A stretch of DNA of 64,000 bases from the NCBI GenBank assembly GCA_039679385.1, contig JBDKVB010000017.1, positions 69,399 through 133,398 on the forward strand, written 5' to 3'. Positions 15,988 to 49,700 of the stretch are shown here, piece after piece. This DNA is from Armatimonadia bacterium. Its GTDB lineage: Bacteria > Armatimonadota > Zipacnadia > Zipacnadales > JABUFB01. Below the pieces are notes generated by a model. It ran no database searches. It worked only from the letters and a program-made list of their open reading frames with translations, and had not been told where the DNA came from. The translations under genes and the position numbers were made by a program. Each line of letters opens with the position of its first letter. Position 1 is the stretch's first letter.

Positions 15988-16920
15988 ATGTACCGACTCG
16001 ACAAGCAGCTTTTTGACGACATCACCAGCCTTCGGGTTGAGGGTGGAGGAGAGGTGCTGTGGTATGCACAGCATCGCAAACGTCGCAAACAGCTAACCAA
16101 CGACGGCCGCCTCGTGATTCTCGCCGCCGATCATCCCGCACGTATGGTGACCGGGGTCGGCAGTGACCCGGTAGCCATGGGCGACCGCGCCGACTACCTG
16201 GGCCGCATCGTAAGAGTGCTCCAGGAGGGCCAGGTGGACGGCCTGATGGGCACGCCGGACATCCTGGAAGAGGTGATTGCAGCCCAGCTCCTGGTGAGCC
16301 TTCAGAGTCAGCACCTCGCCGATGTCTTCCTGGCCGACAAGGTCCTCGTTGGCTGCATGAATCGGGGAGGACTTGCCGGGACCGCCTTCGAGATGGACGA
16401 TACCTTCACTGCCTACACCGCCGAGCGGATGAGGATCATGAACCTCGACGGGGCGAAGATGATGTTCCGCCTCGACCCACTGGACTATGGCAGCGGCCGC
16501 ACGATTGAGGCGTGCAGCCAGGCAATCAACGACTGCCTCGATCGCGATCTCACGGTTTTCCTTGAGCCCATGATGGTGCGCTACGAGGAGGGCAAGTACA
16601 CGGTGGATACCTCGGCGGAGGCGATGATCCGAATCTGCGGTGTCGCCTCGGGATTGGGGAAAAGCTCGTGGAAAACCTGGCTGAAACTGCCGTATTCTGT
16701 GGAATACCCGCGGATTGTCGGGGCCACCACCTGCCCGATCCTCATGCTCGGAGGCCCGGCGACGGGCAATCCCCAGGCACTCGTCGACCAGTTCGCTGCG
16801 GGCATGAAGGCCGGCGGTAACGTTCGTGGCGCACTCGTGGGCCGCAATGTGCTGTACCCCGGCGAGGCAGACCCCGCCGAGGTTGCGAGGGCGGTCTCAG
16901 AGGTGGTACACACTTCGTGA
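15988..16920 (+). CDS. Class I aldolase-like TIM-barrel protein (Cgl0159/DeoC-LacD type)
   Basis: A 310-residue cytoplasmic protein with motifs of the DeoC/LacD/Cgl0159 aldolase group. RLVILAADHPARMVTG resembles the first strand of LacD/LsrF-type enzymes, FLEPMM lies in the middle barrel, and TWLKLPY carries a candidate Schiff-base lysine. PILMLGGPATGNP forms a phosphate-binding-like loop. It probably cleaves or isomerises a phosphorylated sugar-derived compound, but substrate is unknown. It is followed within 26 bases by an MFS transporter, which suggests import and breakdown of the same solute. Confidence 0.65.
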   Translation: MYRLDKQLFDDITSLRVEGGGEVLWYAQHRKRRKQLTNDGRLVILAADHPARMVTGVGSDPVAMGDRADYLGRIVRVLQEGQVDGLMGTPDILEEVIAAQLLVSLQSQHLADVFLADKVLVGCMNRGGLAGTAFEMDDTFTAYTAERMRIMNLDGAKMMFRLDPLDYGSGRTIEACSQAINDCLDRDLTVFLEPMMVRYEEGKYTVDTSAEAMIRICGVASGLGKSSWKTWLKLPYSVEYPRIVGATTCPILMLGGPATGNPQALVDQFAAGMKAGGNVRGALVGRNVLYPGEADPAEVARAVSEVVHTS

Positions 16921-45506: not shown

Positions 45507-45682
45507 CACCCCACAAGAGAAGTAGACCCAGCCCTTTGTCTCCCTCAGGTCCCCGCAGGGACTCCGCTGTCCTGAGAACAGATTCGGGGTCGGCGACGCG
45601 ACTCCTACTCCCGACGCAGGGACTGAGAGGCTGCACAGGGAAGAGTCACTCTCCGGCATTCCCTGCAGAGGAGTTGAGCCAG

Positions 45683-48600
45683 ATGGGCAGGCGCACTTTT
45701 GTGATGGCCGTGCTGCTGATGCTGGTACTGGCGACTTGCCAGACTCTCGCACAGACGCCACTCGCGCACTGGGACTTCGAGACCGGCGACCTTCAGGGCT
45801 GGCGGGTAGTCTCGGGCAACCTTGGCAAGCAGCCCTCTGCCAACGACAACGACCGCTGGCAGGGCAACTTCGACAAGCAGGGCAAATGGTTCCTGGGCAC
45901 CTACGAGGGAGCCAGCGACCAGGCCACCGGTGAACTGCGGTCGCCCGTGTTCACGATTCAGGGCGATGCCCTCGGCCTCCTCGTGGGCGGCGGCAGCGAC
46001 GTCAGCAAGGTGTTCGTGGCGCTGGTTCTTGTCGAGGGAGACCGCGAGGTCCGACGGGAGACCGGCGAGAACCGCGAAGTGATGCGCCCTGTGCGCTGGG
46101 ACGTCACTGCCTTCCGAGGGAAGCAGGCCTATCTGCGAGTTGTCGACAACGCCACCGGCGGCTGGGGACACCTCAACGTCGACGACTTCCGCGAACTCTC
46201 CGCTGAGGAAGCGGCGCGCCTTGATCGCGAGGAACAGCAGCGCAAGGAGGCCCTGCGCCTCGCCACTGAGCAACGCTATCAGCAATGGCGCAAGGGCGTG
46301 CTGGGACCCTCTGAGCCGACGGTGTACCGAGGCGCGAACCTGACGAACTGCTGGATGCCCCTGGGCGGGATTGGCGCCGGCAGCGTCGCGCTCTATGGTG
46401 ACGGATCGCTGCGGCAGTGGCAGGTCATGAACCACGTCAACAGCGATGCCCAGGTCCCCTACTGCTTCCTCGCCGTGAGAGCGCGCGCCGAGGGCCACCG
46501 GCCCATCACCCGTGTGCTGCAGACCAGTCCCGTCGACGAGCTGCCCCTGGTGGCCGGGACCGAGTTCATCGGCGAGTTCCCCGTGGCCAAGGTCCGCTAC
46601 CTCGACGACGCAATCCCAGTTGATCTGACCCTGGTTGCGCACACCTCCCTGATCCCGCAGAACGCAAAGGACTCGGCGCTTCCAGTGGTGTTCTTCACCC
46701 TTCAGGCACGGAACCGGGGCTCCGACTCCGTGCAGTTCGCGACCATGATGTCGGTGCAGAACTTCGTGGGCTGGGACGGCTTTCGCCGAATCAACGGCCA
46801 GTCTGATCCGGGCTTCGGCATGAACCAGAACTGGCTGGTGCGGGATGGCGACCGGGTCTCGCTGTGCATGGACAAGTTCGGGATGGACCGAACGGACCGC
46901 AATTACGGTTCTCTGGCCTTGACCTGTCTGGAGCCTTCGGCGTCTGCCTCCGTCGCCTGGCAGGACGTCGACGACCTGTGGGCCGACTTCGTCGGGGACG
47001 GGCGTCTTGACCAGGCCGGGCCGAAGATACCCAGTGCACCGGGACGCACCTACAGCGGGGCCCTGGCCGTCCGCATGACCCTGGCGCCGGGCGAGAAGGC
47101 CGAGGTACCCTTCCTGCTCACCTGGTACTTCCCCAACCGCCATGCCGAGTATCAGGAGGGCCTCGACAAGTACCGCCTCGGCAACATGTACAACAACTGG
47201 TTCGGCAACACCGAGGGCGTCGCCCGCTACGCCGCCGCCAACTTCTCCCGGCTGCGCAAGGAGACGCTTGCCTTCCACGACACCCTCTACGACAGCAACC
47301 TCCCCTACTGGCTGGTGGACTGCGTAAGCTCCCAGATCTCCACGCTCACCAGTCAGACCTGCCTCTGGATCGAGGACGGTAGCTTCCACGGCTTCGAGGG
47401 CTGCAGCCGCACCAAGGGCTGCTGTCCGATGAACTGCACTCACGTGTGGAACTACGAGCAGACGCTGGCGCACCTGTACCCGGAACTCGAGCGCAAGATG
47501 CGCCACACCGACTTCTTCGTGCAGCAGGAGGATAGCGGGGCGGTCCGACACCGCACGGTGCTTCCGCTCAGCCTGCCTCGGGGCACCGGGCCCTTCTGCG
47601 ACGGGCACCTCAGCAGCATCTCCAAGGCCTACCGGGAACACCTGCTGTCCGCCGATGATTCCTGGCTGAAGGCCTACTGGCCGCGCGTCAAGCAGGCGAT
47701 GGAGTGGGCGATCAGCAACTACGATCCCGACGGTGACGGGTGCCTCCAGGTTGCGCAGCCGAACACCTACGACTGCACGATCTGGGGCAACAACACCTTC
47801 ATCGGCTCCCAGTGGCTGGCGGCTCTCCGAGCGGCCGAGGAGATGGCGCGGTTGATGGGCGAGACGGCCACCGCGGAGCGCTACCATGACCTGTACGAGC
47901 GGGGCCGCGCGAAGATGGACCACGACCTGTGGAACGGGGAGTGGTGGATTCAGGACGTCGACCTCGAGGAGCATCCGCAGTACGAGTATGCCACCGGCTG
48001 CCACTCCGACCAGCTTCTCGGCCAGTGGTGGGCCGACCTCAACGATCTGGGGCACGTGCTGCCGCCGGAGCACGTTCACAAGGCGCTGCAGTCGATCTTT
48101 GCGAACAACTTCCTGAAGACCTTCGAGGGCTTCCGCCAGTCCCCGCGGGCCTTCGCGAGCAATGATGAGATGGGCCTGATCGTCTGCAGTTGGCCCAGGG
48201 GTGGTCGTCCGTCGTCCGTCACGCTATACTCTGATGAGGTGTGGACGGGGATGGAGTACGAGGTGGCGGCGCTGCTGATCCGCCAGGGCCTCCCCGAAGA
48301 GGGCCTGCAGGTCGTAAAGGCGGCGCGGGACCGGTACAACGGAACCCGGCGCAGTCCCTGGAACGAGATCGAGTGCGGCGACCACTACGCCAGGGCCATG
48401 AGCAGCTACTCGCTCCTGCCGGCGGTCGAGGGGCTGGCCTACGATGGGCCGGCCGGTCGGCTGCGCTTCGCCCCGCGCTTGCAGCCTCAGAATCTGCGGG
48501 CGTTCTTTGCCGGCGCCGAGGGCTATGGCACACTGGCCCAGGTGCGGTCCGAAGGTCGCCAGGTGGACGAGGTCAAGCTGACGAGAGGGCACCTGCGCCT

Positions 48601-48778
48601 CCGGCAGTTGGAGCTTGAGGTTCCCGCCGGTCTGGCGGGCTCAACCGTCTCCGTCACCATGCGGGAGGTGCCCGTGCCCGCACAGGTTGTCCGAGGCGCT
48701 TTGCAGCTTGTGGTAAGATTCCCGGTAGACATCGTGCTGGGACCCAGCGACGTCCTGCGGGTAATGGTCGGGCGATAG
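45683..48778 (+). CDS. Exported GH116-type beta-glucosidase/glucosylceramidase-like protein
   Basis: A 1031-residue protein with a signal peptide (about 1-23, ends TLAQTPL). Residues about 25-175 form a beta-rich N-terminal module typical of galactose-binding-like domains. The rest matches family GH116 (GBA2-like): the glycoside hydrolase part starts near RGANLTNCWMPLGGIGAGSV, with a C-terminal (alpha/alpha)6 barrel. NCTHVWNYEQTLAHLYPELE holds the nucleophile candidate E592, and GCHSDQLLGQWW holds the acid/base candidate D776. It probably removes glucose or related residues from glycosides outside the cytoplasm. ATG 45683 follows GAGGAG 9 bases upstream. Confidence 0.82.
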   Translation: MGRRTFVMAVLLMLVLATCQTLAQTPLAHWDFETGDLQGWRVVSGNLGKQPSANDNDRWQGNFDKQGKWFLGTYEGASDQATGELRSPVFTIQGDALGLLVGGGSDVSKVFVALVLVEGDREVRRETGENREVMRPVRWDVTAFRGKQAYLRVVDNATGGWGHLNVDDFRELSAEEAARLDREEQQRKEALRLATEQRYQQWRKGVLGPSEPTVYRGANLTNCWMPLGGIGAGSVALYGDGSLRQWQVMNHVNSDAQVPYCFLAVRARAEGHRPITRVLQTSPVDELPLVAGTEFIGEFPVAKVRYLDDAIPVDLTLVAHTSLIPQNAKDSALPVVFFTLQARNRGSDSVQFATMMSVQNFVGWDGFRRINGQSDPGFGMNQNWLVRDGDRVSLCMDKFGMDRTDRNYGSLALTCLEPSASASVAWQDVDDLWADFVGDGRLDQAGPKIPSAPGRTYSGALAVRMTLAPGEKAEVPFLLTWYFPNRHAEYQEGLDKYRLGNMYNNWFGNTEGVARYAAANFSRLRKETLAFHDTLYDSNLPYWLVDCVSSQISTLTSQTCLWIEDGSFHGFEGCSRTKGCCPMNCTHVWNYEQTLAHLYPELERKMRHTDFFVQQEDSGAVRHRTVLPLSLPRGTGPFCDGHLSSISKAYREHLLSADDSWLKAYWPRVKQAMEWAISNYDPDGDGCLQVAQPNTYDCTIWGNNTFIGSQWLAALRAAEEMARLMGETATAERYHDLYERGRAKMDHDLWNGEWWIQDVDLEEHPQYEYATGCHSDQLLGQWWADLNDLGHVLPPEHVHKALQSIFANNFLKTFEGFRQSPRAFASNDEMGLIVCSWPRGGRPSSVTLYSDEVWTGMEYEVAALLIRQGLPEEGLQVVKAARDRYNGTRRSPWNEIECGDHYARAMSSYSLLPAVEGLAYDGPAGRLRFAPRLQPQNLRAFFAGAEGYGTLAQVRSEGRQVDEVKLTRGHLRLRQLELEVPAGLAGSTVSVTMREVPVPAQVVRGALQLVVRFPVDIVLGPSDVLRVMVGR

Positions 48779-48844
48779 GCAAGGACCTGCCGGTCGAACT
48801 GAGGGAGCGCCGCAGGCGAACTCGAATCTGCAAATGGAAACTGG

Positions 48845-48908
48845 TTTTCCACCCCTTCCGGGGGTTATCCACAGTTCTTTCCACCGTCCATGCCAACTAT
48901 CCACAACG
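48845..48908 (+). repeat. Four same-strand DnaA-box-like 9-mers in a 20-12-20 pattern
   Basis: Two adjacent 32-base units each carry NTTTCCACC followed 20 bases later by NTATCCACA: TTTTCCACC at 48845, TTATCCACA (a perfect DnaA box) at 48865, CTTTCCACC at 48877 and CTATCCACA at 48897. Only the 9-mers are conserved between units; the DNA between them is not. They lie in the gap between the GH116 and E2-core genes. This could be a DnaA-binding cluster (origin, datA/DARS-like or DnaA-regulated promoter). No dnaA gene is in the window. Confidence 0.55.
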
Positions 48909-48977
48909 CGAAAGCGCACGGGATAGGCAGGAAGAGGATGTGGAGAGAGCGCACGTCACAAGTCGCAGCCAGAAAGA

Positions 48978-49700
48978 GTGAACCGTATGAGCAGTCGCAA
49001 ACCGAGACCTGATGAGCAGGAGTACACCCTCCTGGAGCAGACGCCGACCCGCAAGGCGATTGGCGAGCGCACCCTGAAGAGCACCACCGAGAAGCCCGTC
49101 TTCCACATGAGCACGGAGGTGGACGCTTCCGTCCTGGCCGCCGCTCGTGAGGCACTACGTGGCAAGGGCGAGATCTTCCCCAGCTACAACGACTTCGTCC
49201 TGAAGGTAGTCGCCCTGGCCCTGCGCGATCACCCGCGCTTCAATGCCTGGGTGGCCGTGGACGGTCTGCATATCCTCAAGCACATCAACGTGGCCTTCGC
49301 GGCTGCCACGGAGCAGGGCGTGCTGATGCCGACGGTCCTCGACGCCGACCAGAAATCCCTCCTCGACGTCGCCGCAGAGACCAAGGAGATGATCGGCCTG
49401 GCGCGTAAGGGGCGGCTGCGTGCCAGTCTCCAGATGGGCGCAGGCTTCAGCATCAGCAACATCGGCCCGGGTGCGGTCGACAGCTTCGACGCGATCATCA
49501 ACGCCCCGCAGACCGGCATCCTCGCCATCGGTGCCCTCAAGCCCCGGCCCGTAGTGGTCGACGGCTCGATTGAGGCAAGGCCGACGATGTTCCTCACCCT
49601 CAGCATTGACCACGCCGGTGCGGACGGCTCCGATGGTGCGGCCTTCCTGACCACCGTCAAGAAGCTCCTCGAGGACCCGGAGGTTCTCGCATCGCTGTAG
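48978..49700 (+). CDS. 2-oxoacid dehydrogenase E2 acyltransferase catalytic core, no lipoyl domain
   Basis: A 240-residue protein equal to the chloramphenicol-acetyltransferase-like catalytic core of E2 enzymes. It has the typical strand PVFHMSTEVDAS, FNAWVAVDGLHIL, and SISNIGPGAVDSFDAIINAPQTGILAIGA. The active-site motif is DHAGADG with H212 and D216, in place of the usual DHRxxDG. There is no N-terminal lipoyl or E1/E3-binding domain, so it cannot carry acyl groups alone. Start is GTG 48978 or ATG 48987; neither has a strong ribosome site. An E1 alpha/beta pair lies at 30255-32274. It could use a separate lipoyl protein or act as a structural core. Confidence 0.82.
   Translation: MNRMSSRKPRPDEQEYTLLEQTPTRKAIGERTLKSTTEKPVFHMSTEVDASVLAAAREALRGKGEIFPSYNDFVLKVVALALRDHPRFNAWVAVDGLHILKHINVAFAAATEQGVLMPTVLDADQKSLLDVAAETKEMIGLARKGRLRASLQMGAGFSISNIGPGAVDSFDAIINAPQTGILAIGALKPRPVVVDGSIEARPTMFLTLSIDHAGADGSDGAAFLTTVKKLLEDPEVLASL

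Follow-up and report, generated by a model that had tools for sequence, protein, structure and literature searches.

A cluster of four DnaA-box-like 9-mers upstream of an acyltransferase gene appears, judging from its sequence, to be a real and selected DnaA-box module outside oriC, of a known kind. It lies in the window, which is the whole stretch of 64,000 nucleotides analysed here (C17:69399-133398 of G000, a 5.61-Mb, 184-contig metagenome-assembled genome of an Armatimonadota bacterium). The boxes are selected and helically spaced, occur once per genome, have no single constant neighbour from family to family and lie apart from the unwinding site. The triplet formed by the first three boxes has been kept by selection in several families of the order, while the neighbouring genes changed. 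We consider it probable, with modest confidence, that the cluster is a chromosomal DnaA-box module outside the origin that tunes the initiation of replication.

Sequence and conservation of the cluster

As the preliminary description had stated, the four 9-mers face the same direction with start spacings of 20, 12 and 20 bp, and one of them is a perfect DnaA box; all four were confirmed on the plus strand (Table 1). The array can also be read as two copies of a 32-bp unit, YTTTCCACC-N11-YTATCCACA. The cluster is intergenic, between the stop codon of the GH116 gene and the ATG of the acyltransferase gene. The triplet is matched by a triplet sequence model with an E-value of 1.9e-8, the window sequence being among the training set of the model. 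Box 1 has a counterpart at the equal triplet position in the related genomes G001, G002 and G003, and box 4 has no counterpart at its offset in these three genomes.

Table 1 Features in and around the box cluster, in window coordinates
Feature	Position	Strand	Remark
Upstream gene: GH116 (DUF608) glycosidase	45536..48778	+	
20-12 triplet (element A)	48845..48885	+	Once per genome in 11/41 order genomes
DnaA-box-like 9-mer 1, TTTTCCACC	48845..48853	+	Distal box of the 20-12 triplet
DnaA box 2, TTATCCACA	48865..48873	+	Perfect consensus; middle box of the triplet
DnaA-box-like 9-mer 3, CTTTCCACC	48877..48885	+	Starts 12 bp after box 2; 3 mismatches to TTATCCACA
DnaA box 4, CTATCCACA	48897..48905	+	Starts 20 bp after box 3
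Opposite-strand box-like 9-mer, CTCTCCACA	48939..48947	-	2 mismatches; weak; probably chance
Downstream gene: lone 2-oxoacid dehydrogenase acyltransferase catalytic domain (PF00198)	48987..49700	+	ATG 48987

The downstream gene encodes an acyltransferase catalytic domain (E2) without a lipoyl domain and occurs as a short gene across much of the order. Between the boxes and this gene, a direct repeat, GAAAGCGCACG and GAGAGCGCACG, occupies 48910-48920 and 48945-48955, 35 bp apart, and may be the site of another protein or a product of chance. A search of 48700-49050 for Rfam families, promoter-like sites and terminator-like sites gave no match.

Single boxes carry little information and it is the cluster that counts, because TTATCCACA at up to two mismatches has 82 matches in the window versus 62.6 expected; this search picks up three of the four cluster boxes, missing the one at 48877. 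The consensus YTWTCCACM has five matches in the window, four of them inside the cluster. In 200 dinucleotide-preserving shuffles, its maximum per 61 bp was 0 (47 shuffles) or 1 (153 shuffles), although this test is somewhat post hoc because the four boxes themselves served to define the consensus. Across the whole 5.61-Mb genome, the pair pattern YTWTCCACM-N10..12-YTWTCCACM is found at the cluster only (two on the plus strand, none on the minus strand), and the reversed control gave 0 and 0. Under a box matrix that includes these boxes, the cluster is the top-scoring one of contig C17, with 41.6 versus 22.7 for the runner-up. Formation of the cluster by chance is excluded, both in the window and in the genome.

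The acyltransferase gene was matched in 56 of 61 genomes, and the upstream scan covered 30 listed loci of this gene, four from the family of the window (f1, comprising the window genome and G001-G003, two of the four belonging to one genus) and 26 from elsewhere in the order or class. A box cluster with the 20-12 triplet lies upstream of the gene in all four f1 genomes and at none of the 26 other loci, among which L051 carries one perfect box and a few carry one-mismatch boxes, alone or in pairs. The cluster of G001 consists of TTTTCCACC, ATTTCCACC and TTTTCCACA at 20-12 and one further box 118 bp on. Those of G002 and G003 consist of TTTTCCACC, GTTTCAACA and TTTTCCACA at 20-12, three further boxes 150-173 bp from the first, with a head-to-head pair at +163 and +173, and one opposite box 160 bp before it. 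Between G002 and G003, the seven boxes are identical at 63 of 63 positions versus 334 of 577 for the rest of the 640 bp, so that conserved boxes with differing linkers, as initially described, are indeed seen in relatives. The distance from the first box to the gene is about 145, 395, 310 and 309 bp in the four f1 genomes. The gene on the other side of the cluster differs, being GH116 in the window genome and another gene in G002, and a polyketide-cyclase-like gene lies within 5-8 kb in both. The comparison of this gap in relatives, which had been proposed as a check, thus reveals strong conservation in close relatives. The early impression that the pattern looks selected is supported by the conservation within f1, the recurrence of the triplet in the order and the identity of the boxes relative to their flanks. 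The f1 support rests on four genomes, and contig breaks hide the distance to oriC.

Related modules across the order

The strict triplet (TTTTCCACM-N11-NTTTCCACM-N3-TTTTCCACM, at most three mismatches) was searched in 41 genomes of the order and found at a single site in each of 11 of them, the reversed control giving 0 of 41. It is not universal, since it is absent from the other 30, and f2, f6 and part of f4 have other spacings only. Its place is the acyltransferase gap in the four f1 genomes. In f4 (G011 and G016), it occupies a convergent gap between a C45-type gene on the plus strand and a minus-strand gene, the latter being homologous in the two genomes (51.6% over 351 aa); because the neighbours are convergent, the triplet cannot be a promoter of either. 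In f5 (G007 and G012), it adjoins a LuxR-type gene. In f3, it lies about 590 bp upstream of dnaA in G015 and directly upstream of mnmG-rsmG, with parB near, in G021 and G027; G024 carries a 21-12 variant upstream of dnaA. A sequence-only model built from the 11 triplets and run on the 41 genomes gave mostly weak matches at E<=0.05 in 39. Its best match was within 2 kb of dnaA in six of the 28 non-training genomes that had a match (G005, G018, G024, G034, G039 and G040), the arrangement in G034 being different.

A triplet one turn longer (31-12, module B) was found at 22 sites in 21 of the 41 order genomes, with 0 of 41 in the control. The window genome has it at C74:21872-21923 (L216), and 20 more sites are in 20 other genomes. 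A 31-12 match of the window genome at C17:86053, which is the box-like cluster at 16602-16706 of the window (minus strand), was put down to coding sequence; the differences from its counterpart in G002 (C6:20845-20910) look, by eye, like codon third positions. At 18 of the 22 sites, module B lies on the 3' side of tsaD (1.3 kb off in G011), which we take to be the gene named gcp in B. subtilis.

A further arrangement, module C, consists of a plus-strand box and two minus-strand boxes, at 11 bp and 12-13 bp, about 240 bp before the dnaA start in f2, f3 and f6 (L268-L287, L137, L140 and others). One member is missing in some genomes, and the arrangement is missing at dnaA in f1. Within 1 kb upstream of dnaA, there is one box in each of the four f1 genomes (595 bp being available in G003) and at least two in 19 of 24 non-f1 genomes. 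Because a head-to-head pair follows the triplet in the acyltransferase gap of G002 and G003, likewise upstream of dnaA in f3, the comparison suggests, but does not prove, that the box set upstream of dnaA moved to the acyltransferase locus in f1. Elsewhere in the phylum, dense arrays were seen at L011 (G057), with 15 perfect copies of TTATCCACA next to dnaA, and at L014 (G055), with nine perfect copies, so that origins within a single phylum are very different in style.

Position of the origin and rival readings

The dnaA gene of the window genome, which the preliminary description had advised to locate, lies at C31:68795-70168 with dnaN adjoining, on a contig other than that of the cluster. 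Five box-like sites, with tandem boxes in the unwinding module, lie in the dnaA-dnaN gap (L004/L005, C31:68401-68795), together with GTTTTCCACGGTTTCCACGGCACTACTACTACTTCTACG, after which comes an AT-rich stretch. In the available part of PMC8287927, the unwinding architecture is given as a box, a spacer of up to 16 bp and DnaA-trios. A scan modelled on that description and compared with the 95% shuffle level covered six dnaA-dnaN or mnmG-dnaN gaps and the four acyltransferase gaps of f1. A box, a 12-bp spacer and trios in the form of CTA repeats exceeded this level in five of the six gaps (G000, G002, G015, G021 and G024, from f1 and f3), no unwinding module being found in the mnmG-dnaN gap of G014, and trios exceeded it in none of the four acyltransferase gaps. 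The single parS-like site of the genome is at C31:57187, 11.6 kb from dnaA, with mnmG, rsmG and parB near it.

GC skew was expected to change near the cluster if it were an origin, and no turn is present at 48.9 kb of the window and no negative-to-positive turn at 118 kb of C17, the position of the cluster. The AT-richest 30-mer within 600 bp of the triplet does not exceed 19/30 in G000, G002 and G003 and reaches 25/30 in G001. In G002, the triplet is at least 285 kb from dnaA on one side and 30 kb on the other, since the two are on different contigs. On the 391-kb contig C1 of this genome, cumulative skew reaches its minimum 4.6 kb from the cluster, a weak turn found in G002 only, which is given little weight because the strand-corrected minimum on the dnaA contig C6, 58 kb upstream of dnaA, is clearer. 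A very strong negative GC skew at C1:220001-280000 (L097-L099), confined to about 50 kb, distorts the C1 minimum; it falls to -0.25 in intergenic sequence and, on both strands, to about -0.35 at third codon positions.

The cluster is therefore very probably not a replication start, given the dnaA-dnaN module, the parS-like site on C31, the absence of trios and the absence of a skew turn, and the origin suggested by the preliminary description is better placed in the C31 gap. That the cluster could be oriC or a second origin is very unlikely, even though it is a strongly conserved box cluster whose triplet occupies classical origin places in f3 (upstream of dnaA and of mnmG) and lies near the C1 minimum in G002; the complete box-spacer-trio module with its AT-rich flank, the low AT content around the triplet in three of the four f1 genomes and the stronger minimum on the dnaA contig of G002 argue against it. 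A displacement of oriC away from dnaA was entertained because the triplet precedes dnaA or mnmG in other families, and was dropped in view of the unwinding module that the five genomes have between dnaA and dnaN. The wider alternative of chance or another DNA-binding protein with a similar motif finds some support in TTWTCCACA not being enriched genome-wide (14 versus 15 in the control). It is extremely unlikely in the light of the shuffles and reversed controls and of the same motif forming an array beside the DnaA-trios of the dnaA-dnaN gap.

The main rival to an initiation-tuning module is a DnaA-controlled promoter, at which DnaA would repress or activate the acyltransferase gene and link it to the cell cycle. 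DnaA is known to act as a transcription factor (PMC4447404, in its accessible portion), the boxes are 81-142 bp before the start codon in the window, and the cluster stays with this gene in all four f1 genomes, the gene on the other side differing between G000 and G002. We nevertheless regard this reading as somewhat unlikely, because the distance to the gene ranges from 145 to 395 bp, the same triplet is found elsewhere in convergent gaps or beside unrelated genes, the 26 other loci of the gene family have no cluster, and sigma-70-like sites in 48700-49050 number 0 versus 0.2 expected, with a consensus that may not apply to the host. A reactivation site like E. coli DARS, promoting ADP release from DnaA, is quite unlikely. 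The three-box core and the extra-origin position are present, and G002 and G003 carry the additional head-to-head pair, but all four window boxes face one way, whereas box I of DARS faces boxes II and III, and the head-to-head pair of boxes I and II is essential in E. coli according to the parts available of PMC10380432 and PMC5742627. The suggestion of a DnaA-titration or reactivation site made in the preliminary description thus fits best as a whole, with its reactivation half weakened by the lack of this pair in the window.

The preferred reading, an extra-origin module tuning initiation, is consistent with a DnaA-box cluster that is intergenic and outside the unwinding region. DnaA would bind it cooperatively, head to tail, and the module would either hold DnaA or, through the head-to-tail arrangement of protomers, change its ATP state in a datA-like manner. 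The DnaA available to the dnaA-dnaN origin would be lowered or timed, which would set the timing of initiation. In f1, the module may replace the box cluster that relatives have upstream of dnaA, there reduced to one box, and the acyltransferase gene, which begins 81 bp downstream, may be affected incidentally. The recurrence of the cluster at this gene at varying distance throughout f1, and of the triplet near dnaA, near mnmG and in a convergent gap elsewhere, argues for such a module; the 30 order genomes that have no strict triplet, including those with other spacings only, and the acyltransferase gene as the one constant neighbour in f1, as expected of a promoter element, argue against it. 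More tentatively, it is possible that the order governs DnaA by portable, helically phased three-box modules, A (20/21-12), B (31-12) and C, and that in f1 module A moved from oriC to another locus as the cluster near dnaA became smaller. In that case, the upstream half of a bipartite origin would be able to work at a distance as a trans-acting regulator.

Comparison with known systems

To our knowledge, control of DnaA by box clusters outside the origin has been elucidated in E. coli and B. subtilis but in scarcely any other bacterium, and a literature search, with subscription papers mostly outside its reach, found no description of such modules in Armatimonadota. If modules A and B are functional, this little-studied phylum possesses its own collection of geometrically exact elements, and the way these have moved with respect to dnaA would provide natural experiments on the need for the upstream half of a bipartite origin in cis. 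The uvrB-ybhK gap is presumably the place of E. coli DARS1, and the DARS1 boxes were not found there with the box consensus used in this study. For Fimbriimonas, scattered origin genes and few boxes are reported in the accessible part of PMC4072686.

In E. coli, the extra-origin box cluster datA lowers ATP-DnaA, mainly through head-to-tail DnaA-DnaA contacts (available parts of PMC10380432 and PMC5742627). The present cluster resembles datA in being an extra-origin DnaA-box cluster, and datA also depends on an IHF site placed at a defined distance between its boxes and on ATP hydrolysis by the DnaA that it binds. DARS1 and DARS2, which lie outside oriC, each have three core DnaA boxes set at fixed distances (PMC4585315 and PMC5742627, as far as their accessible text goes), and it is module C, with its head-to-head box and tandem pair 12 bp apart, that is like the DARS core in orientation. 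The bipartite oriC of B. subtilis is approached in f3, where a triplet upstream of dnaA accompanies an unwinding module in the dnaA-dnaN gap, and differs from the situation in f1, where the triplet is not beside dnaA.

The strongest in vitro DnaA regions of B. subtilis include the region upstream of dnaA, the dnaA-dnaN gap and the 3' ends of gcp and ydiF (PMC4447404, seen in excerpt), which, within that excerpt, strikingly match the places of modules A/C, the origin and module B; a place adjoining the acyltransferase gene is not among the DnaA regions listed there. Among Armatimonadota outside the order, the tsaD 3' flank (up to 700 bp) contains at least two boxes at one of the best-scoring 30 loci from 91 genomes searched. 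Continuity thus lends no support to deep homology of module B with the gcp-ydiF site, and convergence or loss must be allowed for because 29 of these 30 loci have no box pair. Joint loss of the six DnaA-box clusters (DBCs) of B. subtilis leads to early initiation, according to the available part of PMC5295017. Like the DBCs, the cluster described here is made up of consensus boxes, is intergenic and lies at a distance from the unwinding site; it differs from them in the fixed 20-12 geometry of its triplet.
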